Below, in pieces: positions 25,569 through 63,622 of a stretch of DNA of 64,000 nucleotides; the first letter of the stretch is position 1, and each line of letters begins with the position of its first letter. The notes beneath the pieces are model-generated. The model was not told the origin of the DNA. It saw only the letters and a program-made list of their open reading frames with translations, and made no database searches. The DNA is from a virus. The DNA is taken from IMG/VR virus record IMGVR_UViG_3300035181_001203, positions 48,654-112,653 of that record; one strand, given 5' to 3'. The position numbers were made by a program, and so were the translations under genes.

Positions 25569-25910
25569 CTATTCTACTTTCTTTTTAAATCCACCATATG
25601 AAATTGCGGGTTCTACTGTTGAAAGAATACCGCCATAAATAGCACCTTGCCCTAAACCATGTTTAGCGGCTTTACCAATAGCTGCCCTTGTTCCATTAGT
25701 ATTATTTTTAAATGATGATAGACCACGCTTAAATGCGCCACTTTCACCACCGCCAATTTCCCGTAATTTATTAAACGAAGCTAGGCCAGCATCAGCCGCA
25801 GCTAAACCGCCAGTCAAAGCTACACCACTAGCAATAATTGGATGACGTTTAGCCCAACCAACAATACCAGTTTTCTGTTGTTGTTCTACTGCTAATTTAA
25901 TTAAACTCAT
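25569..25910 (-). CDS. Tagged protein (MSLIKLA), Gly-rich helix, 113 aa
   Basis: The first seven residues are MSLIKLA, shared with many proteins here. Residues ~24-45 (PIIASGVALTGGLAAADAGL) form a glycine/alanine-rich hydrophobic helix, and a second weaker one (GLGQGAIYGGILSTVEPAI) lies near the end, which is basic (FKKKVE). It overlaps the upstream gene's stop by 4 bases. Predicted membrane-active or virion-internal protein; inference. Confidence 0.6.
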   Translation of the reverse strand: MSLIKLAVEQQQKTGIVGWAKRHPIIASGVALTGGLAAADAGLASFNKLREIGGGESGAFKRGLSSFKNNTNGTRAAIGKAAKHGLGQGAIYGGILSTVEPAISYGGFKKKVE

Positions 25911-26101
25911 TTTTTACGTTCCTTATGGTATAGATGAGTACCAATACCAAGGCCGGTTAATCCACCTATACCTAATAACATTTTACCTTTATGCCTATTA
26001 AGAAAACTTTTTGCTTTCATAGGCACAAATGTTGGAACAGCATTTTTAAGCCTCTCTGCGGCCTGTTCCATATCTTTACTTGCTAATTTAATGAGACTCA
26101 T
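25907..26101 (-). CDS. Tagged protein (MSLIKLA), 64 aa
   Basis: Start chosen at the MSLIKLA methionine preceded by AAGGAT; a longer frame would add 22 residues from inside the previous gene. After a polar stretch comes a hydrophobic glycine-zipper helix (MLLGIGGLTGLGIGTHLY) and the basic end HKERKK. The same tag-linker-helix-basic tail layout recurs in neighbours. Confidence 0.65.
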   Translation of the reverse strand: MSLIKLASKDMEQAAERLKNAVPTFVPMKAKSFLNRHKGKMLLGIGGLTGLGIGTHLYHKERKK

Positions 26102-26381
26102 TTTTATGATCCTTATATTTTTTAGCTGCATAAGCAGCAATGCCAGTAATAATACTACCCACTCCAATTCTTTTAACCATTTTTCTTGCTTTTTCTTTTT
26201 TTATTTTTTGAATCATACTCTTATATCTACCTTGTGCTTTTTTAGCATGTTTATTAGAATTTAATAAAGCAATAAAATCATCAGGATCTTTACCTCTCAT
26301 ATAATGCATTTGTGATCTTGCAAGCACAGCATCATCACTAAGAGGTTTTTTATTATAAGCTGCAATTTTTATTAAGCCCAT
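26088..26381 (-). CDS. Tagged protein (MGLIKIA), 97 aa
   Basis: Variant tag MGLIKIA, a long basic helical middle (YKSMIQKIKKEKARKMVKR), a hydrophobic helix (IGVGSIITGIAAYAA) and a basic/His tail (KKYKDHKNESH). It overlaps both neighbours by a few bases. Function unknown; see the tag finding. Confidence 0.65.
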   Translation of the reverse strand: MGLIKIAAYNKKPLSDDAVLARSQMHYMRGKDPDDFIALLNSNKHAKKAQGRYKSMIQKIKKEKARKMVKRIGVGSIITGIAAYAAKKYKDHKNESH

Positions 26382-27232
26382 TTTAATCTCTGCATTATCA
26401 TAGCTAATTTTTCAAACCAAGGACTATTTGAAATACTTTCCCAATCTGTAGAAAGTTTTTTAAATTTCTCAGTATTACCACCAGGCATATCTGGATGATA
26501 TTTTTTAGCTGCATCTTTATAAATTTTCTTTGCCTGAGCTTTTGTAGTAATCTTAGTATGATCTATACCGCCATATTCTTTAAAGAAAGATGCATGATCA
26601 GCAGTTGGTCTAGTTGGGGGAGGCGGGGGAGGACGATAGCCACTACCTCTTGAACTGCTATTTTCAAATCTTTTAAAGAAATCATCATAGAAATCATTGT
26701 GCTTGCTTGACCAACCATTTCCAAAACTGCTACGCTGATTAGATCTCTCACGCCGAAAGTTATTAGATTTTCTTATAAGATTTTTCAATCGCTTCTTATT
26801 TTCGTCAAATTTTCCAGCCTTAATTCCACCAACCGTTCCACCAATCGTTCCACCAACAGCAGCACCAATTAAAGATCTTTTTAACACACTTGCTCCTGGT
26901 TTTTTAACCGCTCTACCATTTTTCCATTCAATATTTCCATAAATATCTGTTTTGTATGCAGTTTTAGCACCAACACTAGCACCACTAAGAGCGCCAATAC
27001 TTGCCATAGTTCCTACAAATCCTTTATTTCTTTGAACTGGCCTAATCATTTGTTTAAAATTCATCGCAGCTAATTTAACAATGTTCTTAGCCTTTTTAAT
27101 TCCAGTAGCAATAGCTAGTCCTTCTGGTGATCCAGATTTACGCATAGCTTCAGCTATATGTATAGCCTTTTCTCTAATTTTAGGATCTAAATTTTTCATT
27201 GAATTCGGATAATCATCTTTAGACCAAGGCAT
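26372..27232 (-). CDS. J-domain protein with internal tag-like segment, 286 aa
   Basis: The N-terminus MPWSKDDYPNSMKNL...KAIHIAEAM is a short domain (DUF2188/ChaB-like in appearance). Residues ~51-60 (NIVKLAAMNF) echo the tag. A glycine-zipper stretch (GAAVGGTIGGTVGGIKAG) and a Pro/Arg-rich linker follow. The C-terminus has a J-domain: KKIYKDAAKKYHPDMPGG, with HPD at residues 246-248. J-domains stimulate Hsp70 ATPase, so host DnaK recruitment is the likely role. The start has GAGGATA upstream. Confidence 0.7.
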   Translation of the reverse strand: MPWSKDDYPNSMKNLDPKIREKAIHIAEAMRKSGSPEGLAIATGIKKAKNIVKLAAMNFKQMIRPVQRNKGFVGTMASIGALSGASVGAKTAYKTDIYGNIEWKNGRAVKKPGASVLKRSLIGAAVGGTIGGTVGGIKAGKFDENKKRLKNLIRKSNNFRRERSNQRSSFGNGWSSKHNDFYDDFFKRFENSSSRGSGYRPPPPPPTRPTADHASFFKEYGGIDHTKITTKAQAKKIYKDAAKKYHPDMPGGNTEKFKKLSTDWESISNSPWFEKLAMIMQRLKWA

Positions 27233-27233
27233 A

Positions 27234-27302
27234 TTATCCTCTTACAAATTTAGAACATTCAATATTAGATTTTAATATTTTAGCATTGCTCGTTAAACTC
27301 AT
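27234..27302 (-). CDS. Possible 22-codon coupled ORF (MSL start)
   Basis: ATGA overlap with the stop of the tagged gene upstream, and its end contains the GAGGATA ribosome binding site of the J-domain gene. Begins MSLTSNAKI, perhaps a degraded tag. Weak evidence as a protein. Confidence 0.35.
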   Translation of the reverse strand: MSLTSNAKILKSNIECSKFVRG

Positions 27303-27493
27303 TTATGTTTCCATCCTCTAGAGACTTTAGCAAAGTTAAGTTTACGACGAATAGCTGGATCGGTTACAGTTTTTAATTTTTCTTCAATAAGACTAATAGG
27401 AATGGGTTCTCCTTTAGGAATGCCTAAATATTCGTGAAGGCTTCCTTCATGAGATTTTTTAATTTCAATAGAGGCTAATTTGATTAGGTTCAT
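27299..27493 (-). CDS. Tagged protein (MNLIKLA), 64 aa
   Basis: Tag MNLIKLA, then a compact polar domain (SLHEYLGIPKGEPIPISLIEE...) without a hydrophobic helix, ending in a basic tail. The middle resembles small helical DNA-related domains, but no family can be named. The site GAGGATAATA precedes it. Confidence 0.6.
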   Translation of the reverse strand: MNLIKLASIEIKKSHEGSLHEYLGIPKGEPIPISLIEEKLKTVTDPAIRRKLNFAKVSRGWKHK

Positions 27494-27534
27494 TTATTAT
27501 CCTCGTTTTTCTTAATTCTATAAGCAATTGCAAA

Positions 27535-27655
27535 TTATTGCAGCACCATTTTAATTTTAGTGGCAATAGCCATACCTTCATCACAAGCTTCAACGATTCT
27601 ATTTGCAATTGCGATAGCTTTACGTTGAATTTTAGGATGAAGGTATTTTACAAGG
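27535..27655 (-). pseudogene. Remnant of a DUF2188/ChaB-like domain
   Basis: The minus strand encodes HPKIQRKAIAIANRIVEA...EGMAIATKIK, closely resembling the N-terminal domain of the J-domain protein (DPKIREKAIHIAEAM...GLAIATGIKK). No start codon with a ribosome binding site exists before a stop in this frame, so it looks like a leftover duplicate. Confidence 0.5.
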
Positions 27656-27659
27656 TATT

Positions 27660-28070
27660 TTAATACCTATTATTTCTAATCAATATATCATGTGGAAGTC
27701 TAGCCATTTCTCTATAGTTTTCATCTATGTAAGCTTGTTCACCAACAAAATCATTATAGCTATTTAACTCATTTACAATTTTATGATAATTAGGTTCTTC
27801 CTTTTCAGCCTTTTTATGTGCTCTATTACTATGTATTAAATTAGCAATACCTAAACCAATAATAGCGCCACCAGCACCAGCTAAAGCACTATTAGTTAAT
27901 CCAGATTTGGTTGCAGCACCTAATCCAGCACCAGCAGCTAAACCAATTAAAGCACTTTTACCATAAGGGCCATCTGTAGCATTCATATGACGTTGAATCA
28001 TATTATCATATGATTTCTTAGCTTTAAAATGTTTAGATTGAAAATCTAATGCAATCTTAATAATAGACAT
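27660..28070 (-). CDS. Tagged protein (MSIIKIA), glycine-zipper, 136 aa
   Basis: Tag MSIIKIA, a basic helix, then a long glycine/alanine-rich hydrophobic stretch (ALIGLAAGAGLGAATKSG, then AGAGGAIIGLGIANLI) typical of membrane-inserting glycine zippers, then a polar C-terminus. A good AGGAGG-like site (GGAGGTAAT) precedes it. Possibly a virion protein that enters the membrane during infection; inference. Confidence 0.65.
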   Translation of the reverse strand: MSIIKIALDFQSKHFKAKKSYDNMIQRHMNATDGPYGKSALIGLAAGAGLGAATKSGLTNSALAGAGGAIIGLGIANLIHSNRAHKKAEKEEPNYHKIVNELNSYNDFVGEQAYIDENYREMARLPHDILIRNNRY

Positions 28071-28193
28071 TATTACCTCCAGTTATTCATATTTTGGAAT
28101 TTATGTTTTTATAATATAAAGAAGCGGTTAACATATTTCTACTATCTTGATTAATGCCAGTTCCATAAATCGTAGTTGTTGATATCCAACTCT

Positions 28194-28289
28194 TTATCTA
28201 AGTAATCCACGACGTTTGTTAGCAATACCAGTTAGTGTATGATATATTAAAACATTTGAGGTTATCTTTACCAGTTTAAATAAACTCAT
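28194..28289 (-). CDS. Tagged mini-protein (MSLFKLV), 31 aa
   Basis: A short gene below usual size limits. It opens MSLFKLVKI and overlaps the upstream stop (ATGA). The rest is basic (NKRRGLLR). Coupling and the tag support it; between it and the next gene (28071-28193) I see nothing. Confidence 0.5.
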   Translation of the reverse strand: MSLFKLVKITSNVLIYHTLTGIANKRRGLLR

Positions 28290-28531
28290 ATTTTCTTCCA
28301 AGTCTGCGTGAACTCTTCTGGATTGAACAATGACCCCTGGACTCCATTATCCACTTTTTTAACCACCTTTTCAATAGTTTTCACGGCAGGAGTAATTTCA
28401 ACTCCAGATCGTCTAACTTCTCCCCAAGCCTTAGCAGCAGCATGTCCTGGTTTCATTCCACCTTTAACAAGATCATGAAATATTGCAGCTACTTGCGGTG
28501 GAAGTTTAGCCGATAGTTTAATTAAACTCAT
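28286..28531 (-). CDS. Tagged protein (MSLIKLS), 81 aa
   Basis: Tag MSLIKLS, then PPQVAAIFHDLVKGGMKPGHAAAKAWGEV (key residues), a helical segment that looks like a small DNA- or protein-binding domain, and a polar end. It contains a CCCCTGG copy (28334). Confidence 0.6.
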   Translation of the reverse strand: MSLIKLSAKLPPQVAAIFHDLVKGGMKPGHAAAKAWGEVRRSGVEITPAVKTIEKVVKKVDNGVQGSLFNPEEFTQTWKKI

Positions 28532-28656
28532 TTTTATTTTCCATTAATTTATCAATATTAATTTTATTTTTATCAATAGTTTTTGAAAGAAATTAAAGTA
28601 TTTTTATTTTGATACCTAGGCATTATTTTTGTTACCGTATAGCCCCATAAATTCAT

Positions 28657-28851
28657 TTAGCTAAAGCTTGGATTTCTCCGATTTTTTTTTGTGTCATCTT
28701 TGAGATGCTTGACAGGAATTTCAATAGCTTGTTTAAATAAACCTTTAGCAATAGGAATATTCCAATTAGGCCCCATACCTTTTTTTACCTTAAAAGCATT
28801 AGGAATATCTGTTCTCGGGCCTGATTCGATAGCTAATTTAAATAAACTCAT
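28657..28851 (-). CDS. Tagged protein (MSLFKLA), 64 aa
   Basis: Tag MSLFKLA, then a polar, Asn/Pro-rich middle and the basic end KKNRRNPSFS. No hydrophobic helix. Starts on the stop codon of the next gene upstream. The 125 bases after it hold no gene. Confidence 0.55.
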   Translation of the reverse strand: MSLFKLAIESGPRTDIPNAFKVKKGMGPNWNIPIAKGLFKQAIEIPVKHLKDDTKKNRRNPSFS

Positions 28852-29165
28852 TATTTCTTTCCTTCACTTTTCTTATGCTTTAAATGTCTATGAAGTCCAT
28901 AAGCAGCAGCAGCTAAACCAACAGCACCAATTAAGCCACCAACTTTACGACTAGTTAATAGTTTTTTAACTGATTTTTTAGTTTCAACTTTAGGAGCGGC
29001 ACTAGGAGCGGCACTAGGAGCGGCACTAGGAATTGTAACTTTAGGTTTAATACCTGATTCATCTTGAGGATGAATTTCCCAAGGTCTAGTTTTTAAAGCT
29101 TCCGCATTAGCAGCATCCATTTCCGCTTGCGTAACTCGTTTACCGGCAAGTTTGATTAAGCTCAT
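28851..29165 (-). CDS. Tagged protein (MSLIKLA) with SAAP repeats, 104 aa
   Basis: The methionine of MSLIKLAGKR is chosen; a start five codons earlier would add MGDEE. A 12-base repeat present three times encodes SAAPSAAPSAAP, a flexible linker. The C-terminal part has a hydrophobic helix (GGLIGAVGLAAAAYGL) and the tail HRHLKHKKSEGKK. Same layout as the other tagged proteins. Confidence 0.65.
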   Translation of the reverse strand: MSLIKLAGKRVTQAEMDAANAEALKTRPWEIHPQDESGIKPKVTIPSAAPSAAPSAAPKVETKKSVKKLLTSRKVGGLIGAVGLAAAAYGLHRHLKHKKSEGKK

Positions 29166-29308
29166 TTCTTCATCCCCCAATTAAGAATGGTTTTATTAGG
29201 TTTAGTTCTCATTTGTGGCTTTTGTCTTTGAGTAGCTGGCAGTAAACGTGGATCTTGATCGTTTTGAGCTATAGTAGAAACTTCTAGGGCTAATTTAATA
29301 AGGCTCAT
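29162..29308 (-). CDS. Tagged protein (MSLIKLA), 48 aa
   Basis: Shorter than most gene callers allow. It opens MSLIKLALEVST, is polar and basic after that (ATQRQKPQMRTKPNK), and overlaps both neighbours (ATGA junctions), so it is translated within the operon. Confidence 0.6.
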   Translation of the reverse strand: MSLIKLALEVSTIAQNDQDPRLLPATQRQKPQMRTKPNKTILNWGMKK

Positions 29309-30410: not shown

Positions 30411-30411
30411 T

Positions 30412-31553: not shown

Positions 31554-31569
31554 AATTCCTCTCATTAAA

Positions 31570-31599
31570 ATAGTATCATAGTTTAAGCAAAAATGCTAT
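31570..31599 (-). promoter_or_regulatory. Leftward promoter of the tagged-protein operon
   Basis: On the minus strand ATAGCA and, 18 bases later, TACTAT preceded by TGA. The start site would fall at the ribosome binding site of the holin-like gene. It overlaps the rightward promoter and the palindrome AGCAAAAATGCT (31586-31597). Confidence 0.4.
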
Positions 31600-31614
31600 G
31601 AGTTTTGTTATAAT
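31585..31614 (+). promoter_or_regulatory. Rightward promoter with 5' hairpin
   Basis: AAGCAA, 18 bases, TATAAT. The transcript would begin with a hairpin of about 11 pairs (GATTAGCAAAT with ATTTGTTAATC, 31629-31652). Confidence 0.65.
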
Positions 31615-31667
31615 CTATATAAGGAAGGATTAGCAAATTTTATTTGTTAATCTAAATCCTATAAAAA

Positions 31668-31682: not shown

Positions 31683-31729
31683 TAAAAATTTTTTTAGAAG
31701 AGTAATAAAGAATAAAAAAGGAGGAAAGT

Positions 31730-41883: not shown

Positions 41884-44800
41884 ATGTTATATAATAATCT
41901 TGGTATACATACTGATTTAACGCTTGGCAAATCTGCAATTCAATTTAAAGATTTAAAAGATATAAAATTTAACACTCCAATAGCTATCTGTGATAACGGA
42001 AATATCTCACAATTAGTTAAATCATTAAAACTTAATAAAAACAATATTCCAGCAGTAGAATTATTCGTTATTAAATCATATGCAGAGAAACGAACTCCGA
42101 TTTATAGAGCGCGTTTCTTTGCATTTGATTTAATAGCATATGAATCAATATGTAAAATGATTAATATAGCATCGTTGAATAAATACTATTCTCATAGGAT
42201 TGAGATTAAAGATTTAATTTTAAATGGAGATATAATAATTATTGTTGATTCTGATTTTCTTTTTATTGATCAACTTCCATATGAAAAAACCTATGTTGCG
42301 ATTAATGCAAATACAGATTTAAGTAGTGCAAATATATTAAAATATAAACCTATTTTTTATTATGACTCATATGCTATACACAAAAAGGACATTTCTAAGG
42401 TAGAATTATTGTCAGCTAGAGGTTTCAAACATAATAATAAAGTTTGGTATTATGATGATTCTCACTATCATACAGCTTCATTGATACCAGAGTCAATTAC
42501 AAATTATCTGAATCTACTTAAGAAGGCTGATCACCCTATTATTAAGTTTGAAAATAGATATCCAATCTATTGTGAAGGTTCAGAAGATTATTTTGACGTA
42601 TTAGTATATGCTGGATTTAAGCGAAAGTATCCAAATGCAACACAACAGGAGATTGAAAGATTAGATTATGAAGTCTCAATCATTAAGAAACTTGGATATC
42701 AAGATTATTTTCTCATTAATTGGGACTTTATTAATTGGAGTCGTAATAGAAATATTCCTATTGGTCCAGGTAGAGGTTCAGCCGCAGGTTCTATCGTTGC
42801 TTATTGTCTTGATATCACTAAACTTGATCCTATTGCTAACGGCCTCTATTTTGAGAGATTCTTAAATCCAGAACGAGTAAGTCCTCCAGATATTGATACA
42901 GATATAAGCGATATTGATAGAGCGGAAGTTATTGATTATATACGTCAAAGATATGGAAAAGAAAAAGTTTCTCAAATCATAACTTTTTCTGAATTAAAAT
43001 CAAAATCTGCTTTAAAAGATGCTGCGCGTTTACATGAAATGGATGCGTCAGAAGTTAATAGAATAACATCATATTTTCCACCATCAAAATTTGGTATACC
43101 TCCTACTCTTGAAGAAGCATATAATGTTGAACTTGTTCGATCTTGGGCAGATTCACATGCTAGTATTTGGAATGAAGCAAAAGCACTAGAAGGGTTCGTA
43201 AGACAAGTTGGAATCCATGCGGCTGGACTAATTATTGCTCCTAAAGAAATAAATACTCTTACTGGAATCCAGTATGCTAATGGTGAAGCTATATGCCAGT
43301 TTGATAAAGATGATGCAGAAAAATTTGGTCTACTTAAAATGGATTTCTTGGGTTTAGCAACTTTAGGTCTTATAAAAAAGACTCAAGAATTATTAGGTAA
43401 ATCATATTATGATATGGAAAAAGTTCCATTAGATGACTGGAAAGTTTATGATGCGTTTTCCAGGGGCGATACTCATGGAGTTTTTCAATTTGAATCTGAT
43501 GGAATGAGAAAATTACTTAAACGTATTAAGCCAACATCATTTGCCGATATTGCTGCTGCTACCGCTTTATATAGACCAGGCCCATTAATGTCTGGATTAA
43601 CAGAAAATTATATTCACAATAAACATTCTATTAATCCAGAATATTTAATTCCAGAATTTCAAGAGCTTCTGAGTGAAACTTATGGGATATTTGCATATCA
43701 AGAACAAGTAATGCTAGTATCACAAAAAATTGCTGGATTTACATTATCTAGAGCAGATAATTTACGAAAAGCAATTGGTAAAAAAGATAGAAATTTAATG
43801 AAAACTATGGAAGAAGAATTTATTTCTGGTTGTTTGGCTGGTGGACAGACTAGTGAGAAGGCAGAAAAATTATGGACACAGATAGTATCATTCGCAGATT
43901 ATTGTTTTAATAAATCACACTCATATGCTTATGCTTTAATTTCTTATTGGACGATGTATTTAAAATTAAATTATCCAAAAGAATTTGCAGTTTCATTATT
44001 ATCATTAGATATGAAAGATAGTTCTGCGCTCCGTTCTCATTTCTTTGCCTTCAAAGACAAAATCAACTTTATCCCTCCATATATTAATAAAGGTGGAGAG
44101 GGTTTTAAGATTTGTGATAATGGTATTATGATGGGATTTGGTTCTATTAAAGGAATGGGTAATAGTTCTTCGTCTATAGAAAATAATCAACCATATAAAA
44201 ATATCTCAGATGTAGTCATTAAAAATAATTTAGATAAAACACAATTAACTACATTAATCTATAGTGGTGCATTTGATGAAATGGAGCCTGATAAATCGGT
44301 TCTATTAGGAAATTTAGAACGTCTTTTAAAATTTGGAAAAGAAAATAAGACTTCTGAAATTTTTAATATTTTTGATCCTTCAGAAGTATTTAATTTGGAT
44401 AGAAGCAGAAAAATTAAATTACCGATTGAAGGATACATGGAGAAAGCCTGTTATGGCTTTAATATTTATCATGGATTCGTAGGAAAAAATAAATGGTTGA
44501 TTGATTCATTAGAATCAGATTCTATAATTGGAACTATCATAGAAATTAAAAGAGCCAAAACTAAAGTAAAACAACAAGATATGGCCATTCTAACAATTGA
44601 GACAGCTAAAGGTAATATGAAAGCTGTTTTATTCCCAAATATATATGATAAATTTTCAGTTCAATTAGCAAAAGAAGAAACTTATGCATTTAGAGGCGAA
44701 TTGAAATATGGTAAAAATAATGAAGGTGATGAAGAAGCATCTTTAATTGTTTCAGATATGTTAATAGAATCTGGAATTGTAATTAATGAAGTTAAACTAG

Positions 44801-45012
44801 AAAAAGAAGAAGCAATAACGCAAGGAGAATTTAACAATATCTTGGATAGATGTTATGTTGGAAATGGATATACTACAGTAAAAGTTTTTGAAATACAAAA
44901 TGATGGAGATAGTCATTTTCTTTTTAAACATGAACAATCTATTGATTATACAGAATCTATACATAAAATTCTATTAGATAATAGATTTGATATTTTAATA
45001 AAAATCTTCTAA
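41884..45012 (+). CDS. dnaE: C-family DNA polymerase (DnaE-like alpha subunit)
   Basis: GPGRGSAAGS (residues 294-303), PDIDTD (335-340, catalytic Asp 336 and 338) and KMDFLGL (third Asp 487) are the polymerase active-site motifs; the helical finger and ALYRPGPL, FAYQEQVM and FNKSHSYAYA blocks follow. The N-terminal PHP region (GIHTDLTLGKSAIQF) has lost the HxH metal motif, so its nuclease is probably inactive. A C-terminal OB-like part (IIGTIIEIKRAKTKVKQQDM) is present. Length 1042 aa is near bacterial DnaE. The phage thus has its own replicative polymerase; no beta clamp or proofreading subunit was recognised in this window. Confidence 0.93.
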   Translation: MLYNNLGIHTDLTLGKSAIQFKDLKDIKFNTPIAICDNGNISQLVKSLKLNKNNIPAVELFVIKSYAEKRTPIYRARFFAFDLIAYESICKMINIASLNKYYSHRIEIKDLILNGDIIIIVDSDFLFIDQLPYEKTYVAINANTDLSSANILKYKPIFYYDSYAIHKKDISKVELLSARGFKHNNKVWYYDDSHYHTASLIPESITNYLNLLKKADHPIIKFENRYPIYCEGSEDYFDVLVYAGFKRKYPNATQQEIERLDYEVSIIKKLGYQDYFLINWDFINWSRNRNIPIGPGRGSAAGSIVAYCLDITKLDPIANGLYFERFLNPERVSPPDIDTDISDIDRAEVIDYIRQRYGKEKVSQIITFSELKSKSALKDAARLHEMDASEVNRITSYFPPSKFGIPPTLEEAYNVELVRSWADSHASIWNEAKALEGFVRQVGIHAAGLIIAPKEINTLTGIQYANGEAICQFDKDDAEKFGLLKMDFLGLATLGLIKKTQELLGKSYYDMEKVPLDDWKVYDAFSRGDTHGVFQFESDGMRKLLKRIKPTSFADIAAATALYRPGPLMSGLTENYIHNKHSINPEYLIPEFQELLSETYGIFAYQEQVMLVSQKIAGFTLSRADNLRKAIGKKDRNLMKTMEEEFISGCLAGGQTSEKAEKLWTQIVSFADYCFNKSHSYAYALISYWTMYLKLNYPKEFAVSLLSLDMKDSSALRSHFFAFKDKINFIPPYINKGGEGFKICDNGIMMGFGSIKGMGNSSSSIENNQPYKNISDVVIKNNLDKTQLTTLIYSGAFDEMEPDKSVLLGNLERLLKFGKENKTSEIFNIFDPSEVFNLDRSRKIKLPIEGYMEKACYGFNIYHGFVGKNKWLIDSLESDSIIGTIIEIKRAKTKVKQQDMAILTIETAKGNMKAVLFPNIYDKFSVQLAKEETYAFRGELKYGKNNEGDEEASLIVSDMLIESGIVINEVKLEKEEAITQGEFNNILDRCYVGNGYTTVKVFEIQNDGDSHFLFKHEQSIDYTESIHKILLDNRFDILIKIF

Positions 45013-45112: not shown

Positions 45113-45543
45113 TTAAGCTTTCGCCAAAGACGCTATTCCACGTCTCAAAATATTAATAGCCGCATTAATATCTCGATCCAAAATTAAACCGCAAGAACAT
45201 TCATGGATTCTATCTGATAATTTTTTATCAATTATTTTTCCACATCTAGAACATTCTTTAGTTGTATTTTTTGGATTAATTAGAACTACTCTTTTACCGG
45301 CCCATTCTGCCTTCTATAAATTTAACAAAGATTTGAATTAGAAATTTTCCATTGCGTGAGATATGTAGATAAATCATATAAAGAAATGTTTTTCTTATCT
45401 TTTTCCAATGCATTTTTATGAAGTTCTAAAGTTTTATTATAAATATATCTACATCCTTCTAATGTAGCTTCTAACTTACTGAGTTGCAACTTCGTAGGAT
45501 ATAGTCTATATTTGAAAAATTTATGCAAGTAAGACATCAGCAT
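45113..45543 (-). pseudogene. tnpB: Internally deleted TnpB (IS200/IS605-type) remnant
   Basis: The minus strand begins with a TnpB N-terminus (FKYRLYPTKLQLSKLEATL, CRYIYNKTL) that stops after 73 residues. Directly after it another frame encodes the TnpB C-terminus: AEWAGKRVVLINPKNTTKEC, SRCGKI, HECSCGLILDRDINAAINIL, i.e. the zinc ribbon (four Cys) and the last RuvC motif (DRDINAA). The middle part with the first RuvC aspartate and the glutamate is gone, so the nuclease is dead. No TnpA was found nearby. Confidence 0.85.
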
Positions 45544-46592: not shown

Positions 46593-48077
46593 ATGAGTTT
46601 GATCAAATTAGCTAAAAAAGAAAAAGAAAAAGAAAAAGAAAAGCTTAAAGAACAAAAATTCAAACCCCAAAAACATCAAATAAGTGCTGTTAAAAAATTT
46701 GAAAAAAGTAAATCAGAAATATTTTTTCACGGTTTAGGAAGTGGCAAAACATTAACTAGTATTATGGCAGGTGAGAGAACCCCTGGAAATAAATTAGTGT
46801 TAACTCCAGCTTCTCTTGCTCATAATTTTAGAAAAGAATTACATAAATTTAATATATCAGATCAAAATTATAAACTTGTATCTTATGAAAAGTTTAGACG
46901 TAATCCAGATAAATTTATAGATAAATATAAACCATCTATGATTATTGCTGATGAATTCCATAGAGCAAATAATATGGATTCTCTTACTGGTGATTCATTA
47001 AGAAAAGCTAGATTGAAAACCAAAAAGTTTATAGGTTTGACTGGATCTTTAGCTCAAAATAGACCATCAGAAATTGGTGAGTTATTACATACTGCAACCG
47101 GAAAACCAGTATTAGGAAATAATCAAGAAGAGTTTGATAAAAAATTTATTAAAAATCGTATAATTAAACCTAGTTTATTTGGTCGTTTCATAGGTATAAA
47201 ACCAGGGGCTATTGAAGAACCTAAGAATTTAGATAAATTTAAAACTATTGCTGACCAGTATATTAGTACGTTTGCTGGTGATGAAGAATATAAAAAACAT
47301 TTACCTATTGTAGAAAGAGATGTTGTTAGAATAAAAATGGACAAGCCTCAACAAAAAATTTACGACTACACTTTTGGTAAGGCTCCAGCGTGGGTTAAAT
47401 TTAAAATAAGACATAATATGCCGACATCTAAGCGTGAGTCCGTTAATATTAACTCTTTTTTAATGGGTAGTAGGCAGGCGTCAACAGCTATTCAGCCATT
47501 CGGGGTACAATCTAGTACCCCAAAACTCAATGCAGTTTTGCATGACTTAGAACATGGAATAAAAACTGATAAGAATTTTAAAGGTGTAGTTTACTCAAAC
47601 TTCCTTGAAGGTGGATTACTGCCTCTTGGAGAAAAATTAAAAAAACATAATATTCCATATGGATCATTCACTGGACAACAAACGCATTCTGAACGAAATT
47701 CAATGATTCATGATTATAATAAAGGAAAATTAAAAGTATTATTGTTATCACAGGCTGGCGGTGAAGGTCTTGATCTTAAAGGTACAAAATATTTAGGTAT
47801 AATGGATCCTTCATGGAATCCTGAAAAAACTGAGCAAGTAGTAGGAAGAATAGCAAGATTTAAATCACATGAAATGCTGCCAGAAAATGAACGTAAAGTA
47901 ATAGTTAAAGAATATTTATCTGAACCAAAATTAGGATTACTAGGTAAAATCAAAAAAGTATTTAAACCAGAAACACATGCAATTGGAACTGATGAATATA
48001 TTCGTAATAGATCTCTTGAGAAAAAAAATCTAAATGATAAATTTACAAACATTCTGAAAGGAATGTCGAATGTCTGA
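46593..48077 (+). CDS. Tagged SNF2/SF2 helicase, 494 aa
   Basis: The start is MSLIKLA, then a Lys/Glu-rich linker. Helicase motifs: HQISAVKKF (Q-like), GLGSGKT (Walker A, 47-53), DEFH (Walker B, 121-124), LTGS (III, ~150-153), VVYSNFLEGG, SQAGGEGLDLK (V) and QVVGRIARF (VI). It therefore belongs to SF2, nearest to SNF2-like translocases. It lies inside the structural block and shares its tag with predicted virion proteins, so packaging into the virion is inferred. Overlaps the next gene by 8 bases. Confidence 0.85.
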   Translation: MSLIKLAKKEKEKEKEKLKEQKFKPQKHQISAVKKFEKSKSEIFFHGLGSGKTLTSIMAGERTPGNKLVLTPASLAHNFRKELHKFNISDQNYKLVSYEKFRRNPDKFIDKYKPSMIIADEFHRANNMDSLTGDSLRKARLKTKKFIGLTGSLAQNRPSEIGELLHTATGKPVLGNNQEEFDKKFIKNRIIKPSLFGRFIGIKPGAIEEPKNLDKFKTIADQYISTFAGDEEYKKHLPIVERDVVRIKMDKPQQKIYDYTFGKAPAWVKFKIRHNMPTSKRESVNINSFLMGSRQASTAIQPFGVQSSTPKLNAVLHDLEHGIKTDKNFKGVVYSNFLEGGLLPLGEKLKKHNIPYGSFTGQQTHSERNSMIHDYNKGKLKVLLLSQAGGEGLDLKGTKYLGIMDPSWNPEKTEQVVGRIARFKSHEMLPENERKVIVKEYLSEPKLGLLGKIKKVFKPETHAIGTDEYIRNRSLEKKNLNDKFTNILKGMSNV

Positions 48078-55496: not shown

Positions 55497-57338
55497 ATGA
55501 GCAATATATCGAATACTAGCGTCGTCGCACCAGAGAATAGTAGACGCTACCCATCGAATGGCATAGATTATCCACTTAGGTTTTTCAATATGCTCCATTT
55601 TCAGCGTCCTAAAACGCTGAATGAAATATTTAAGTGGTGCATAATTTTAAATGAATCACACGGTCTTTTAGATCGTATAACAGATACTATGGCAAGATAT
55701 CCAGTTACCCATATTGTAGTAACTGGAGACACTGGAGAAAATAATTCATTTTGGTCAGATCATCTTAACGAAACTGTAAGTATTCAAAATGAATTAGTTC
55801 AAAATGGTAAAGATTATTATACATTTGGCAACTGCATAGTAACTATTGTACCTCCATTCAAAAGATATTTAGTTTGCCCAAAATGTAATACTTATAAACG
55901 TCATTGTATTAATGAAGATAATTCAGATGATAGAATTGACTGGAAATTTCATAATTTTAATTTTATTTCAAAATGTAAAAATAAAGAGTGTAAATATAAT
56001 GGTATAATGGAAGTTAAAGACGAATTGTTAACTGGTGAAGAATTTGCAAATAATGTAAAAATTCAAAGATGGCCTATTGCTCATATTAAAATTAGGGATT
56101 TAAGTATTGCTGGTAAAAAACGTATTTATTATAAAATAGAAGATAAATATCGTAAGCCAATTTTAAGTGGAGATAAGTTTGTTGTAGCTAATGTCCCATA
56201 TACATTTATATTAGCTTGTAAACAAAATAAAAATTCAGCAATTATAGAACTTCCACCTGAATTAACATTCCATTATAAATATGAATCTATTACAGAACCA
56301 GAATGGGAAGGATTATCTAAACCATTTTTCTTCTCTGCATGGAAAGATATCTTCATGAGTTTTGTTTTACGAAAAGCTCAAGAATGTATTGCTTCAGATC
56401 ATTTAATTCCAAATCGTTTTATATTTCCTACCGCTACCACTGGTGGTACAGATCCCTTAAGTAAAATTGACGGATCTGCATGGGTTCAAACAGTTACAAC
56501 GCAATTAAAGAGACAACAAAATGATCCAAATGAAATTGGAATCGTTCCCTTTCCATTAGGATATCAAGCTTTAGGTGGTCAAGGCAAAGCTATGTCTCTT
56601 AGGGAAGAAATTGAACTTCAAGATCGTAGAATTCTTACACAAATGGGTATTCCGCCAGAATTAATTTATGGTGGTATGACTTGGAGTGGAAGTAATATAT
56701 CATTAAGAATGCTTGAAAATTTATTTATGTATTACATTGGTAAGCATAATCAATTTATCAAGTTTTATACAAATTATGTATCTAGAGTTTCTGGGATTAA
56801 AGCACCAACAAAAGCTATGTTATCACCATTCAAGATGGCTGATGATATTCAACAAATGAATGCCCTTAGTGCATTAGGCGCACAAGGTAGAATAAGTGAA
56901 ACTACTGCTTTAAGTCAAGTTGGAAATGGCATTAATCTTTCTCATGAAGCAGATCAAGCTGAAAAAGATGCAGATAGTATGAAGCGTTTACTTAGAGCAA
57001 GACAAATGATGAATACTGAAGTAACTAATGAAATTAATAAAATTAATCAACTTGAGAATGTTGATTTACAAGGTGAAGCTATTTTAGAACAAGGTAAAAT
57101 TCAACAAGCAGCAGGTAGTCAATTGGTTAATGGCATTACAGCTTCGACAACTCAAGGAATTGTAAATCAATTAAATAATGTTAAAGATCCATTAGAACGA
57201 AGATCTTTACTGATAGAGCTTCAATCAAAAGACTCGCAAAAATATAATGAAATAGTATCTGCATTAAATGGCGTTTCTAATAATTCATTACCAGAAGCTA
57301 AGTTCGCTAAATCTACGCCAGAAAAGGCTAAAGTATGA
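55497..57338 (+). CDS. Portal protein, 613 aa, with zinc-finger insertion
   Basis: The core EIELQDRRILTQMGIPPELIYGG followed by SLRMLENLFMYYIGK (key residues) is the portal wing/stem pattern: a long helix, 'GIPPE(L/V)', then a long helix. The C-terminal ~130 residues are helical and Gln-rich. An insertion at about residues 125-170 has CPKCNTY...HC and CKNKECKYNG, a likely zinc site unusual for portals. The portal ring is the channel for DNA packaging. Confidence 0.75.
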   Translation: MSNISNTSVVAPENSRRYPSNGIDYPLRFFNMLHFQRPKTLNEIFKWCIILNESHGLLDRITDTMARYPVTHIVVTGDTGENNSFWSDHLNETVSIQNELVQNGKDYYTFGNCIVTIVPPFKRYLVCPKCNTYKRHCINEDNSDDRIDWKFHNFNFISKCKNKECKYNGIMEVKDELLTGEEFANNVKIQRWPIAHIKIRDLSIAGKKRIYYKIEDKYRKPILSGDKFVVANVPYTFILACKQNKNSAIIELPPELTFHYKYESITEPEWEGLSKPFFFSAWKDIFMSFVLRKAQECIASDHLIPNRFIFPTATTGGTDPLSKIDGSAWVQTVTTQLKRQQNDPNEIGIVPFPLGYQALGGQGKAMSLREEIELQDRRILTQMGIPPELIYGGMTWSGSNISLRMLENLFMYYIGKHNQFIKFYTNYVSRVSGIKAPTKAMLSPFKMADDIQQMNALSALGAQGRISETTALSQVGNGINLSHEADQAEKDADSMKRLLRARQMMNTEVTNEINKINQLENVDLQGEAILEQGKIQQAAGSQLVNGITASTTQGIVNQLNNVKDPLERRSLLIELQSKDSQKYNEIVSALNGVSNNSLPEAKFAKSTPEKAKV

Positions 57339-58255
57339 GTTTAATTAAATTAGCAGGATTACAATCTTTAATTATGCCAACCGTAGGAACTACTGCTGCT
57401 ATGAGTGGAAGTCCTTTTTCATGGTTAATGAAAAAGAGTCCTAAACAAAAGATTTTTGGATTTATTCCAAAGCCTAGTTTAAGAAGAAATGTTCAGGAAA
57501 TAAATATATCAACAATAGCAAATGCTATTAATAATATTAGAGATGGAAAAGTGCAAGATTCTACTAGATTCCTATCTGGATTAGCCGATTCTACAATAGG
57601 TCATGCTGGCAAATTAGGAATTGGAATTGCTGAGAAATTAAATAAAACTCCAGGGGTTTCTAAATTATATAAATATTTAACAAATAGAGTTATATCAAGA
57701 GATGGAAAAATACAAATAGATCAATTAGAAAAACTATTAAAAACTGGTAAAAAAATTAATGATATTAGTTCTAAAATTAGCAATAATCCATTAACATTGT
57801 ATGGAGCAGGTATTGGTTCTATAGTGGGTGGTTCTAAAACTCCAACTGATGATAATTCAAGATTAAAAAATACTTTAAAAGGATTTATGGTTGGTGGAAG
57901 TGTTGGTTTTGGAGCTAAGAAAATAGCAAATTCAGTAAAAAATAAAACAAATCCATTGGCATCTATACATAAACATTATTTTGCTGATGATTATTGGAAG
58001 GAAAGAATACAAGGAGCAAACAAAAGTGTTATTGGTCCTGTATTAGCAAATGCTTTTACATCTTCTCCAGAAAGTAGAGCAAATCGAATTAAGAGATTTA
58101 ATGCGTGGCGTGATTTTAACCAGGATGTTTTTAATAAAAATAAATTTGTAAATTTATTCAATACCACAAAAGATAGTTTTAAAACAAAAAATAAAAACAA
58201 GAGAACACTTATTGGCTCATTAGGTAATAAACTATTTGGTGAAGATGAAAAATGA
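57335..58255 (+). CDS. Tagged protein (MSLIKLA), 306 aa
   Basis: ATGA overlap with the portal stop, tag MSLIKLAGLQ, hydrophobic patches (TLYGAGIGSIVGGS; GFMVGGSVGFGAKK) like those of the leftward operon, and a basic tail. Located directly after the portal, which supports a head-interior location. Confidence 0.65.
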   Translation: MSLIKLAGLQSLIMPTVGTTAAMSGSPFSWLMKKSPKQKIFGFIPKPSLRRNVQEINISTIANAINNIRDGKVQDSTRFLSGLADSTIGHAGKLGIGIAEKLNKTPGVSKLYKYLTNRVISRDGKIQIDQLEKLLKTGKKINDISSKISNNPLTLYGAGIGSIVGGSKTPTDDNSRLKNTLKGFMVGGSVGFGAKKIANSVKNKTNPLASIHKHYFADDYWKERIQGANKSVIGPVLANAFTSSPESRANRIKRFNAWRDFNQDVFNKNKFVNLFNTTKDSFKTKNKNKRTLIGSLGNKLFGEDEK

Positions 58256-58701: not shown

Positions 58702-58714
58702 GAGGATAAATATA

Positions 58715-59200: not shown

Positions 59201-60002
59201 AAATGTAGATTATAATAAAACTATTCTAGCTTGGACGGTTGAATTAGATTTTAAAGAAAATCTATATAATTTTTTATATTTAGTTGAAATATCTGAATCA
59301 GAAAATGGTCCATGGATTCCTCTATTTCTAGATCCTATTTATGCCTTTGGCTTTGTAGATACTATGACTCAAAGAGGAATGATAGATCAAAGATTATATT
59401 ATCGTGTAAAAGCTATAGATTCTCAAGGTAATGAATTCTTTTCAGATAATAAATCTATTATAGAAGAAGATGATAATTATATTGCTAATTATGTAGCGAG
59501 ACAACAACAACTTCTTTTAGAAAGATATAATGGTCAAGAATTTTTGCATTATGCAAGAAAAAAATTTGGTCCACGATGTAGTAATTGTTATTTAGAAACT
59601 GAAAGAAAAACTTTTATGTCTAAATGTCCAGTATGCTTTGGGACTACATATGAAGGTGGATATTTTGCTCCAGTAAAAATATCTTTAAATAAAGACCCTC
59701 AATTAAAAGGAATAGACAAAGATGCTCATGGAGTCAATGAAGCTAAAAATGCTGTATTCTTAACATCAAATGAAGTTATTATTGAAGCAGATGACCTATT
59801 AGTTGCATTGAAAAAAACTGACCAAAGATATTTTGTAACACAAATAGTTCCAGTTAGCTTACATGATAGAACTACTAGTCAAAGAGTAATCACAGAACAA
59901 GTGAAATCTGATAACCCCGCACAATTAGTCCCTGTTGATCTAAATGCATACACTTTAGAAGAATTTAATGTCTTTCGTCGTGACTGGAAGATAATCAGAT
60001 GA
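59178..60002 (+). CDS. Virion protein with Fn3-like domain and zinc ribbon, 274 aa
   Basis: Residues 5-100 look like a fibronectin III domain (ILAWTVELDF; YLVEISESENGPWIPL; RLYYRVKAIDSQGNEFFS). CSNC and CPVC (~residues 133-155) form a zinc ribbon. A beta-rich end follows. Position between portal and sheath suggests a neck or connector protein. Confidence 0.6.
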   Translation: MRINLEIRNVDYNKTILAWTVELDFKENLYNFLYLVEISESENGPWIPLFLDPIYAFGFVDTMTQRGMIDQRLYYRVKAIDSQGNEFFSDNKSIIEEDDNYIANYVARQQQLLLERYNGQEFLHYARKKFGPRCSNCYLETERKTFMSKCPVCFGTTYEGGYFAPVKISLNKDPQLKGIDKDAHGVNEAKNAVFLTSNEVIIEADDLLVALKKTDQRYFVTQIVPVSLHDRTTSQRVITEQVKSDNPAQLVPVDLNAYTLEEFNVFRRDWKIIR

Positions 60003-60634
60003 ATCAAAAAGATTTTACATTAAGTAGAAATTTTAATACTGGACTTTATGGAGTTAGAGCAGTTGTGCTTTTCTTAAGGGAAATGTTCACAGCAAATCCA
60101 GATTTAGGTTTTAATATTTATACTGATGATCTAGCAAAAGCAGATGCATTTTTAAGTTTACATATCACCACTAAACATGACTGGGAAACTAAATACAGAG
60201 GGAAGCGTCCTATTATCTTTGTTTCCAGGGGCAATTTAATAACGGGAGTAAATAATACTCAGGGTATTGGAAGAGTTCTTTCTATAACAAATAATGGACA
60301 AGTTACCTCATATTCTGATTTGATTTCGTTCCCAATTGTGGTAGAATGTTTATCAGAGAGCGATATTGAATCGGAAACGTTATCATCCATAGTCCTAACA
60401 TTATTGACTGGTGATACAAGAGCATTAAGAAGTTTAGGATTACAGATACAAGGAAATCCTATACAAACGCCTACACAGTTATTCGAGAAAGTAAATAATT
60501 CTTTTATTTCTTCAGTAATTATTCAAGTTCAAGTCCAAAGACAAATGAGAGCAATAAGAACACCAAAAAATTTATTAGAAAGTATAGAATTTAAAATTAA
60601 TGATGGTTTAGAAGTTAACATAAAAGAGGATTAA
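59999..60634 (+). CDS. Tail completion/terminator-like protein, 211 aa
   Basis: ATGA overlap. The protein sits immediately before the tail sheath, the usual place of a tail terminator, and alternates strands and helices (FPIVVECLSESDIES; SVIIQVQVQRQ). Assignment by position. Confidence 0.5.
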   Translation: MNQKDFTLSRNFNTGLYGVRAVVLFLREMFTANPDLGFNIYTDDLAKADAFLSLHITTKHDWETKYRGKRPIIFVSRGNLITGVNNTQGIGRVLSITNNGQVTSYSDLISFPIVVECLSESDIESETLSSIVLTLLTGDTRALRSLGLQIQGNPIQTPTQLFEKVNNSFISSVIIQVQVQRQMRAIRTPKNLLESIEFKINDGLEVNIKED

Positions 60635-60636
60635 TT

Positions 60637-61602
60637 ATGTCATATTTACCGCCTCATGTTTCAGTAACTCAGATTCTTACTAGAGCTAGTCAGAATCTTG
60701 TTAATAGTGAACTATTGCCTACTTATGTAGGATCTCTTAATCAAGTTGTAAATAATACTCCAATTTCTTTGATTTATCCTGTTACAAATACTACGATTAG
60801 CTATTTAGGACTAAAGGCTGGTGCAATAGTTAACCAGTCAAGTGTTCGTATTACAGTTAATAATGCAATAGTACAAGTATCAACAAATACAATATCAGCA
60901 GGAGTTTTTACCGCTGGATCCGCAATAGTTAATCAGACTGGAGCATTTGTAAATACTAAAGCTGGAGATTTATTAGTTCTACCTAATAATGGTGGAACCT
61001 ATACAGTTCAATCAGTAACTAGTAATGATAGCTTAGTGCTAACTACCCCAACTAGTTATGCTCCAACCACGGGAAGTTATACAATACAAAGATTAATTCC
61101 TTCAGTAAATGCTGATTTTGGAACTGCTGTTTATAATAGTGGATCATTTACAATTACACAATTACAATATTCTGGAATGGATATTCTTTCCGGCTCTGCG
61201 TCATTAAGTTATGTTGCTTTAAGAAAAGATTTAACTGGATTTTATTCAGTAACAAATTATGATCAACTCGTAGCTGATATGGACATTGAACCTGAAAGTG
61301 GTATTGGTTTTTATCTTGGTCAAATTGCACTAGCAGCTAATGGCGGAACTACAGTATTAGCTTATATAACCCCAGATAATACTCTTGCAAGCTTTAACAA
61401 AGCTTGGAGCGAATTAGCAGTTAGACCTGATGTTTATTTTGTGGTTCCAATTAGTACTGATCCTACGATTAATGCTGGGGCAGCTTCTCATGCAATAGCA
61501 ATGGCCGATCCTGATATTGCTTACTTTAGAATGGCAATTGTAAACGCACCAATTACTTTAAATAAAACTTTAGTATCTAATGATTCATTTACTAAAGCTT
61601 AA
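60637..61602 (+). CDS. Tail sheath, N-terminal polypeptide, 321 aa
   Basis: Starts SYLPPHVSVTQI like sheath proteins, includes a beta insertion domain (GAFVNTKAGDLLVLPNNGGTY), and a Rossmann-like end (VYFVVPISTDPTIN) typical of the sheath core. It stops there, and the rest follows in a second gene, so the sheath appears split. The contractile sheath surrounds the tail tube. Confidence 0.6.
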   Translation: MSYLPPHVSVTQILTRASQNLVNSELLPTYVGSLNQVVNNTPISLIYPVTNTTISYLGLKAGAIVNQSSVRITVNNAIVQVSTNTISAGVFTAGSAIVNQTGAFVNTKAGDLLVLPNNGGTYTVQSVTSNDSLVLTTPTSYAPTTGSYTIQRLIPSVNADFGTAVYNSGSFTITQLQYSGMDILSGSASLSYVALRKDLTGFYSVTNYDQLVADMDIEPESGIGFYLGQIALAANGGTTVLAYITPDNTLASFNKAWSELAVRPDVYFVVPISTDPTINAGAASHAIAMADPDIAYFRMAIVNAPITLNKTLVSNDSFTKA

Positions 61603-61613
61603 TCGGAGATAAA

Positions 61614-62585
61614 ATGAGTATTTTAATTACAGTACCCGGTGAAACCTTTTTAACAAAAGGTGTAAGAATTGGAGATACTGTTAAAATATTAACAGTAAAT
61701 GGCTCAGATGTAGATTCTACTCATTATCTTTTAAAGAGTGGATCTAACCAATTAGACTATGACGCTCTTTTAGTTTCTGAAGTTGTAAGTGAAACATCTT
61801 TCAATATGGAAGCTTATAAAAATGGCGTTACTTTAGACATTGATGCCACGATGTTGAATTTAGCATCGAAACAATCCTTTACTTTTGATATTATTCATAA
61901 TCTTTCAAAAGATGAACAAGTTGATCAAATTTGTGCAATAGCACAAGGATATGCAAATAAGCGTGTAGTATTAGTTTGGCCTCCAAAAGCAGATTATATT
62001 ATTAATAGTAAAAAAGTTACAGTAGATGGATCTGCTTTAGCTGCTGCTTTAGCTGCTGCTAAATCAATTTATCCTGCTCAACAGTCAATGACTAATATGC
62101 CTTTTGCTGGCCCTTATCAACTTTACTATTCAAATAATTATTTTACACCAACACAACTAAATAGATTGAGTGATGCTGGTGTATTAGTTTTAGTTCAAGA
62201 TGCTGTTGGTGCTGATATTTATGCCAGACACCAAAAAACTACAAGCAATGTATCAATTCAAGAACAAGAAATGAGTATTACAAATGCTATTGATAAAATA
62301 TCAATTGATATAGCAGCAATAGGAAAACCCTTCATAGGTAAATTTAATATTACTCAAGATTTACTTACGCAATTACAAGATGTATTTAATACTTATTTAT
62401 TTAATGCTCAAAGTCATAAATCTCCATATTGTGGAAGTTTAATTTTAAGTTATACTGCTCCTGTACTTAGAGCAAATTTAGATGGTCAAAATACAGATTT
62501 ACCCCCTGGAAGACTTCAAGTATCCTTAACAGTTGAAATTGGTTATCCAGCTAATTATATTGATATTCTTGTTTACATTCAATAA
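61614..62585 (+). CDS. Tail sheath, C-terminal polypeptide, 323 aa
   Basis: Own site CGGAGATAAA. A beta domain (TKGVRIGDTVKILTVNGSDV) leads to RVVLVWPPKADYI and the canonical sheath C-terminal domain (AGVLVLVQDAVGADIYARHQ; INTAIDKISID-like helix; GRLQVSLTVEIGYPANYID). It forms the subunit interface of the sheath. Confidence 0.7.
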   Translation: MSILITVPGETFLTKGVRIGDTVKILTVNGSDVDSTHYLLKSGSNQLDYDALLVSEVVSETSFNMEAYKNGVTLDIDATMLNLASKQSFTFDIIHNLSKDEQVDQICAIAQGYANKRVVLVWPPKADYIINSKKVTVDGSALAAALAAAKSIYPAQQSMTNMPFAGPYQLYYSNNYFTPTQLNRLSDAGVLVLVQDAVGADIYARHQKTTSNVSIQEQEMSITNAIDKISIDIAAIGKPFIGKFNITQDLLTQLQDVFNTYLFNAQSHKSPYCGSLILSYTAPVLRANLDGQNTDLPPGRLQVSLTVEIGYPANYIDILVYIQ

Positions 62586-62598
62586 AAGGTGATTAATT

Positions 62599-63327
62599 AT
62601 GGCAAATCAACTTTCAATTAAAGATTTACTTGGCGCAAATGGTGATGGCGCAAGTAGCTGGAATTGGAGAGAGTCATTCGTTCAATTAGACGAAAATATG
62701 GCTACTCCAGGCTTATTCATTGCTTCTGAATCTACACTAATTGCTTTTGGTCCTGCTTCAGCAACCGCAGCATTTGATGTAGTGAAAGTTGGTTTGACTC
62801 CTAATATTTCTATTAGTCAGCAAATTCCACAGCAAAGATTACCTGAAATTGGATCAGTTAGAGTTCATATCTTGAATGGTGTACCTATTGGTGGTGGCAC
62901 AATATCACGCTTAGTTTATAATGGTCCATCACTTATGAGATATGCTTATGGTAATCTTTATGATGATCAAGGTAATCCAACAGCATTAGCTTTACAAGGT
63001 ATGGCAACTGGCGCCGGACCCGCACAAGACTTTACCACAAATCTCTTTAAGAGAATTATGTTAAAGCCTGATAAAATTATGCAGGGTAATAAAGATACGC
63101 AACTTTGGTTATCAGCTTGGGATACAAGATTACGAACGCCTTTCGGCATTTGTATGTATTTCCAAGATATTGCTGGTAATGCCGTTGGTGGTGTTTATGC
63201 CGAAGGTGCTAAAATTAACTCTCATAATATGTCTCAATCTGCTGGACAGTTAATCATGGTTGAAGGCATCACTTTCGCTTTTGATCGTTTAGTTCCTGTC
63301 CGTGGTATTGGTAATTCACAATTATAG
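62599..63327 (+). CDS. Tail tube protein candidate, 242 aa
   Basis: Beta-rich protein immediately after the sheath genes, the usual position of the tube. Contains repeats of Gly and Asn and a strand-rich end (QLIMVEGITFAFDRLVPV). No cysteine-rich or catalytic motifs. Confidence 0.65.
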   Translation: MANQLSIKDLLGANGDGASSWNWRESFVQLDENMATPGLFIASESTLIAFGPASATAAFDVVKVGLTPNISISQQIPQQRLPEIGSVRVHILNGVPIGGGTISRLVYNGPSLMRYAYGNLYDDQGNPTALALQGMATGAGPAQDFTTNLFKRIMLKPDKIMQGNKDTQLWLSAWDTRLRTPFGICMYFQDIAGNAVGGVYAEGAKINSHNMSQSAGQLIMVEGITFAFDRLVPVRGIGNSQL

Positions 63328-63337
63328 AGGTGAGCAG

Positions 63338-63622
63338 ATGAGTTTAATTAAAATTGCTGCAAGAGGCGATGTTTTATTTAGAAATGGAATTTTAGCTGCA
63401 ACAAAAGAAGCTGGAACCCCAGGGGTTAATGCAGCTTCTAGAATACTTAGATATTTACCAAAGTTCAAAGATTCAAATAATTTAAAAGTAATTAAAGACG
63501 TTGACAATATTGGCAATGCTGTTGATAAGTATGTAAAAAATGCAAAAATATCTAACACATCATCAATGAGTAATTTTAGAAAAGCTGTAGCAAAAAATCC
63601 GAAACTTGGTAAATTACTTTAG
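63338..63622 (+). CDS. Tagged protein (MSLIKIA), 94 aa
   Basis: Start at the MSLIKIA methionine after AGAGGTGAG; a longer frame would overlap the tube gene. Polar and basic after the tag (NAKISNTSSMSNFRKAVAK). A CCAGGGG copy lies at 63419. The tag after the tail genes extends its distribution to this operon. Confidence 0.6.
   Translation: MSLIKIAARGDVLFRNGILAATKEAGTPGVNAASRILRYLPKFKDSNNLKVIKDVDNIGNAVDKYVKNAKISNTSSMSNFRKAVAKNPKLGKLL

Follow-up and report, generated by a model that had tools for sequence, protein, structure and literature searches.

The window analysed here is a stretch of 64,000 nucleotides that covers positions 48654-112653 of a viral record of 112,653 bases (IMG/VR record IMGVR_UViG_3300035181_001203, termed G000 in the following). 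A preliminary description of this DNA had noticed 13 starts at which otherwise unrelated proteins begin with the heptapeptide MSLIKLA or a close variant, and had proposed that this shared start is a packaging tag comparable to the capsid-targeting sequence (CTS) of bacteriophage T4. We have followed up this tag in the complete record and in related phage genomes. Every one of the 13 starts lies where it had been placed, with plausible purine-rich sites upstream (Table 1).

A heptapeptide common to unrelated phage proteins

Within the window, the tags at 26381 and 27493 deviate at position 2 (MGLIKIA and MNLIKLA), and the weakest member is the product of 31 amino acids (aa) at 28289, MSLFKLV, with V at position 7. 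A search of the whole record for further tagged starts added two outside the window, C1:10433(-) and C1:10872(-), both of which encode tagged glycine-zipper proteins. Among the open reading frames (ORFs) of the record with at least 45 aa, 13 of 161 start with the motif, compared with an expectation of 0.016 upon shuffling within ORFs and of 0.095 upon column shuffling, and the highest count reached in 2000 shuffles was 2. The reversed pattern, used as a control, gave 0 (strict) and 3 (loose) starts, against 9 and 14 for the real pattern.

Scans of viral contigs yielded relatives with the same tag, namely the 157-kb G005, the 85-kb G002, the 33-kb G001 and several fragments. Several DNA-scan matches in contigs of higher G+C content, such as the MSLIKFA of a 754-aa protein, were discarded as chance or unrelated. 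The 53 non-redundant tagged proteins have only the tag in common, a short N-terminal peptide on proteins that share nothing else. Entropy is at most 0.8 bit at residues 1-7 and rises to 3.5-4.0 bits from residue 8 on; K5 is invariant and A7 is found in 50 of the 53 proteins. In the family of the protein starting at 57335, five orthologues with 33-37% identity keep all seven tag residues (7/7), while residues 8-20 are hypervariable. A comparison at codon level, first bases against peptide, found the peptide conserved and the synonymous codons varying: Ser is encoded by AGT, AGC, TCT or TCA, Leu by several codons (TTR/CTN), and third positions vary. Since synonymous positions are free while the residues are fixed, it is the peptide that is under selection.

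The core of the tag also occurs away from the start of proteins. The gene at 26372-27232 lies inside the cluster of tagged genes, and in its product the core follows a separate N-terminal domain. This internal core is kept in relatives, as GLVKLAS in the G005 orthologue and as IVKMAS in G002. The C1:10872 protein offers the complementary case: homology to its G005 homologue begins directly after the tag, and in the homologue the tag is replaced by a longer N-terminus that ends in IDKEA/G. Both the internal core and the replaced tag are in keeping with a propeptide or a processing site, but not with a signal to the ribosome. A 125-aa ORF of G005 (C1:3152-3529, L073) starts with MGLVKLSA; another tag-like sequence, IIKLA, follows at residue 62, and the portion from there on matches the window protein starting at 27493; this ORF is either a two-unit precursor or has two starts in one frame.

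Table 1. Tagged genes and related features of the window (positions of the window; aa, amino acids)
Coordinates	Strand	Feature	Remarks
25569..25910	-	Tagged protein MSLIKLA, 113 aa, with RHPIIASGVALTGGLAAADAGL hydrophobic Gly-rich segment	Tagged orthologues G005 C1:112199 (55% identity) and G002 C1:27278 (L032)
25907..26101	-	Tagged protein MSLIKLA, 64 aa, Gly-rich helix and basic tail	
26088..26381	-	Tagged protein MGLIKIA, 97 aa	
26372..27232	-	Protein of 286 aa with an N-terminal MPWSKDDYPNSM.. domain, a tag-like site inside, a glycine zipper and a DnaJ-like domain at the C-terminus	DnaJ match with E 2e-5 does not reach the curated cut-off
27065..27085	-	Internal tag core NIVKLAA, residues 50-56 of the 26372-27232 product	
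27299..27493	-	Tagged protein MNLIKLA, 64 aa	Relative G005 C1:3152-3529 aligns at internal IIKLA
27660..28070	-	Tagged protein MSIIKIA, 136 aa, with a hydrophobic segment rich in Gly	
28194..28289	-	Possible tagged peptide MSLFKLV, 31 aa	
28286..28531	-	Tagged protein MSLIKLS, 81 aa	
28657..28851	-	Tagged protein MSLFKLA, 64 aa	
28851..29165	-	Tagged protein MSLIKLA, 104 aa, Gly-rich helix and basic tail	
29162..29308	-	Tagged protein MSLIKLA, 48 aa, conserved DPRLLP..RQKP..NKT..NWGMK	Orthologues G005 C1:110089 (72%) and L032:3561
46593..48077	+	Tagged SNF2-like DNA helicase MSLIKLA, 494 aa	phrog_62 E 2e-49; Helicase_C, SNF2-rel_dom
57335..58255	+	Tagged protein MSLIKLA, 306 aa	Adjoins conserved 613-aa structural protein (portal-like by position)
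61614..62585	+	Tail sheath protein (context: contractile tail)	phrog_279 E 6e-10
63338..63622	+	Tagged protein MSLIKIA, 94 aa; gene follows 62599-63327	Equivalent position also tagged in G001 (MSIIKLA) and G002 (MSIVKIA)

The 62599-63327 product is tail-tube-like by its place after the sheath. The predicted structure of the 57335 protein was of low confidence (mean predicted local distance difference test score, pLDDT, 47) and was left unused. Upstream of the helicase the window encodes a DNA polymerase of the phrog_405 family (41884-45012, plus strand, E 7e-234), whose matches in annotated phages are DnaE-type alpha subunits with about 33% identity. Between the polymerase gene and a 308-aa gene preceding the helicase sits a 73-aa ORF KYRLYPTKLQLSKLEATLEGCRYIYNKTLELHK (45322-45543, minus strand), which by eye resembles an N-terminal piece of TnpB/OrfB. 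In G005, the ORF at C1:33563-35008 (L074) contains CVTKDTQITTTDGIKLVSEL, by eye an intein-like N-terminal splicing motif.

The tag core in head proteins of relatives and in a sister lineage

G005 is syntenic with G000 through the tail tube, where the G000 record ends. Its head module encodes a maturation protease, the major capsid protein (phrog_2522, E 7e-7) and acidic scaffold-like proteins, and three tagged genes lie directly upstream of the protease gene. The protease (C1:71248-72972) belongs to a head-maturation-protease family (phrog_18299, E 3e-11), and its predicted fold matches gp19 of phage G and many prohead proteases in a viral structure library (BFVD). H123 and S176 are invariant in 38 relatives. 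In an hhalign comparison they fall in or near register with H85 and S140, the catalytic residues of T4 gp21, although the alignment is non-significant (probability 0.8%, P 0.07). A fold search of the PDB with the whole protease model gave no significant match, T4 gp21 (5jbl) appearing only weakly, and the protease alignment, used as a profile against PDB sequences, found no match there. Portal-like relatives were searched for among genome contigs; none were found there and hence no host.

The tag core can be written as φ-x-K-x-A, its second half as φ-x-K-φ-A, and it recurs throughout the head proteins of G005. In the protease, FIKTA/S at residue 28 and LEKVA/S at residue 243 flank the catalytic domain; the capsid protein has MEKVA/A at residue 21, and the scaffold-like proteins have LQKLA/S, LEKTA/N and LEKIA/E. 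Judged by these sites in the protease, capsid and scaffold proteins of relatives, the tag ends in the putative recognition motif of the head protease, with a caveat that concerns the residue after the tag. Motif counts compared with 500 within-protein shuffles gave 38 sites against 7.1 expected in the G005 head, 36 against 6.0 in the G002 head, 34 against 4.7 in that of Salmonella phage Arash, 34 against 4.4 in that of Vibrio phage D69 and 10 against 3.0 in Bacillus phage G (0/500 shuffles in each case). Regions of non-virion genes had no excess of the motif (9 vs 10.6 and 7 vs 5.6). The same method recovered the known motif φ-x-E in T4 head genes (19 vs 5.2), which have no excess of φ-x-K-x-A (5 vs 3.7). 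T4-like φ-x-E sites in the phages of the tag group were also considered and rejected, as they are not enriched. In the whole proteome of G000 the enrichment is modest (40 vs 25), because the head module is missing from this record.

The sites are held at homologous places. Between G005 and G002, K is conserved at 21/25 sites and A at 22/25, compared with 65/126 and 88/149 elsewhere (Fisher p 0.002 and 0.004). K23 and A25 are invariant in four capsid proteins of about 26% identity, as are K30 and A32 in the proteases from G005 to phage G. A search with the aligned proteases located 80 loci, with the motif about 2-9 fold over shuffles in all loci scored; it is common to the head modules of Arash, D69 and about 75 environmental contigs. 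When no motif was assumed, K-x-A and L-x-K were the top residue pairs near about 80 protease genes after a zinc-finger-like C-x-x-C, and the unbiased profile reads [DE][DEG][LMFI][EVT]-K-[QTVEI]-A with S, E or A as the next residue. By its sequence this profile looks like a protease site that would be cut after A; a cut after K is also possible. Outside the head module, φ-x-K-x-A also occurs at three conserved positions, 119, 144 and 175, of a protein of about 580 aa that is encoded beside a 1993-aa protein (G000 C1:1553-3319, G005 C1:29833-31572).

A sister lineage carries a tag of its own. In nine records we found 27 starts of the form MNKY(L/I)xK(I/L/V)A, the reversed pattern giving 0. This tag, MNKYLEKIA, also ends in φ-x-K-φ-A, and its carriers are again unrelated proteins that include an ATP-dependent DNA ligase-like protein and two SNF2-like helicases starting with MNKYLVKIA or MNKYLEKIA. 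One of these helicases is 29% identical to the window helicase, the other is 42% identical to Gp217 of Arash, and the window helicase is 34% identical to Gp217. With each helicase under the tag of its own lineage, the same enzyme has received each lineage's tag. Among the tagged proteins and their homologues, only the untagged Gp217 has reported virion presence; it is abundant there, as mass spectrometry of purified Arash virions detected it with 38 unique peptides and 1148 spectra (PMC10585845). Another carrier of the sister tag, a 222-aa protein of G023 (C1:46457, L177) with YHGTSKANAEAIRKEGFK, has no Pfam match and is reminiscent of ADP-ribosyltransferase-like folds. T4 packages an ADP-ribosyltransferase, Alt.

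Proposed packaging, docking and other possible roles of the tag

We regard it as probable, from these sequence comparisons, that MSLIKLA is a capsid-targeting propeptide similar to the T4 CTS, that it carries a head-protease site and that its cargo is packaged and ejected with the DNA. The packaging tag of the preliminary description is thereby the best supported reading: the φ-x-K-x-A core equals the predicted head-processing sites of relatives, tagged genes adjoin the protease gene there, and the sister tag has the same core and likewise sits on a helicase. During head assembly, MSLIKLA would dock unrelated cargo, including small glycine-zipper and basic proteins and the helicase, to the scaffold or core, and its φ-x-K-φ-A half would be a site for the phage's own head-maturation protease. 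This putatively K-x-A-specific protease would probably trim the tag inside the prohead, and the cargo would remain there until it is ejected together with the DNA. We infer docking on a scaffold, packaging, ejection and a cut that may lie behind either A or K from the tag, its conservation as a peptide, the occurrence of φ-x-K-x-A at homologous places in head proteins, and the sister tag.

Tags and internal sites are not the same in all positions. Position 4 is hydrophobic in 51/51 tags but in 10/68 internal sites, and position 6 is L or I in 50/51 tags and 16/68 internal sites. This extra constraint points to a second role of the tag, most simply docking on the scaffold or core. The bodies of tagged proteins are depleted in φ-x-K-x-A (2 vs 11.6, beyond residue 47) and not in most permuted motifs, and this avoidance would suit proteins exposed to the protease. 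No significant enrichment was seen for a second classical site directly behind the tag (9 vs 5.6).

Several observations weigh against a packaged and cleaved tag. The protease is absent from the window's own record and the capsid gene also lies outside it; the record ends just past the tail tube, just before the place where the head protease is expected, which is encoded in G005 and G002. The residue after A is hydrophobic in 26/51 tags and in only 8/68 internal sites, of which 55/68 have S, E, A, G, N or D there. This is the chief reservation about cleavage directly after A7, which may therefore be slow or absent in some tagged proteins. φ-x-K-x-G is also low in the bodies of tagged proteins. 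The helicase orthologue of the close relative G001 (L012) is without the tag. Finally, mass spectrometry of Arash reached 100% coverage of Gp221, Gp223 and Gp224 (PMC10585845), and as Gp221 and Gp223 carry several sites and were yet fully covered, the scaffold-like proteins are not wholly destroyed.

Some of these points would be expected if the tag were an uncleaved docking peptide, mimicking the recognition motif of the protease or scaffold and anchoring proteins in the head without being removed. The hydrophobic positions 4 and 6 that set tags apart from internal sites would follow from such a role, and a residue after the tag that is not the usual S, E or A suggests constraint beyond a cleavage site. 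However, the invariant K5 and the nearly invariant A7 are precisely the pair by which the sites in other proteins are defined, and the swap of the tag for a longer N-terminus with IDKEA/G at its end, seen in the C1:10872 homologue, is what one expects of a propeptide. We consider uncleaved docking possible but unlikely.

The preliminary description had named two alternatives to packaging, an amphipathic membrane signal and a translation-enhancing signal. A minimal amphipathic peptide that directs small proteins to the membrane would suit the glycine-zipper hydrophobic segments of many tagged proteins, but the helicase is tagged as well, the core recurs in the capsid protein, scaffold-like proteins and protease, and the invariance of K and A would be left unexplained; we judge this explanation very improbable. 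Selection on the nucleotides for translation initiation or ribosome loading would place the tag at the start codon, where it sits, and TTA, ATT and AAA codons are common in this AT-rich genome. This explanation is disfavoured by third positions and Ser and Leu codons that vary freely while the residues do not, by the copies of the motif inside proteins and in head proteins, and by the different start used in the sister lineage, so that hardly any credence is left for it. Equally little speaks for a functionless relic of gene duplication or 5'-end shuffling, since for all the clustering of the small genes, some of them paralogous (C1:9993 and C1:10483 both match one G005 protein), the tag is the sole feature common to the 53 proteins, and distant orthologues of the 57335 family keep all of its residues before a hypervariable stretch.

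Comparison with known packaging systems and implications

In T4, N-terminal propeptides of 10-19 residues direct internal proteins into the core, where gp21 is the protease that cuts them; within the CTS, targeting depends on residues 4 and 7 and processing on residues 8 and 10 (PMC9026906). As with the CTS of the internal proteins IPI-III, the tag described here is a very short N-terminal peptide on otherwise unrelated small basic cargo, its end corresponds to a putative cleavage motif of the head protease, the cargo turns over between relatives, and there are constraints beyond the site itself. Unlike the CTS, the tag has only 7 residues and a φ-x-K-x-A instead of a φ-x-E core, serves over 12 cargo proteins in a genome, a helicase among them, and is known from sequence alone. 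The head proteases of φKZ (gp175) and SPN3US (gp245) cut the propeptides of ejection proteins at S/A-x-E (PMC9026906, PMC10052503). These are also large contractile phages with many head cargo proteins, self-cleavage of the protease and multiple sites per propeptide, and in SPN3US serine is favoured after the cut, which we count as a likeness; in contrast, their propeptides are long and individual, whereas here a K-x-A motif and a short common tag are found. In phage P1 the N-terminal 30 residues of DarB suffice to send a reporter into the head (PMC9024508), but this is a longer signal of one protein and not a common tag. Arash (OQ632216, PMC10585845) has a homologous head protease, capsid protein and helicase and a head module rich in φ-x-K-x-A; it differs from the tag-bearing phages in that no MSLIKLA occurs in the stretch read and no cleavage has been reported. 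A literature search found no earlier report of the tag or of an LxKxA motif with a prohead protease, although the subscription literature may differ.

The best reading of these comparisons is that the system would work like that of T4 with another motif. In a wider sense it seems fairly likely that a large, mostly uncultured group of contractile-tailed phages has a head protease whose φ-x-K-x-A specificity has not been reported before, and that a minimal N-terminal packaging tag evolved separately in each of its lineages (MSLIKLA, MNKYLEKIA), which cargo genes gained and lost, the same helicase having acquired it independently; the injected proteome could then be read from sequence. It usually takes mass spectrometry to learn which phage proteins are injected with the genome. 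Should the tag be a packaging signal, the cargo could be named directly from sequence for many uncultured phages, and a cleavage rule for a widespread head protease would be at hand. A handle of 7-9 residues to load proteins into phage heads would become available, and parallel evolution of packaging tags would be shown.

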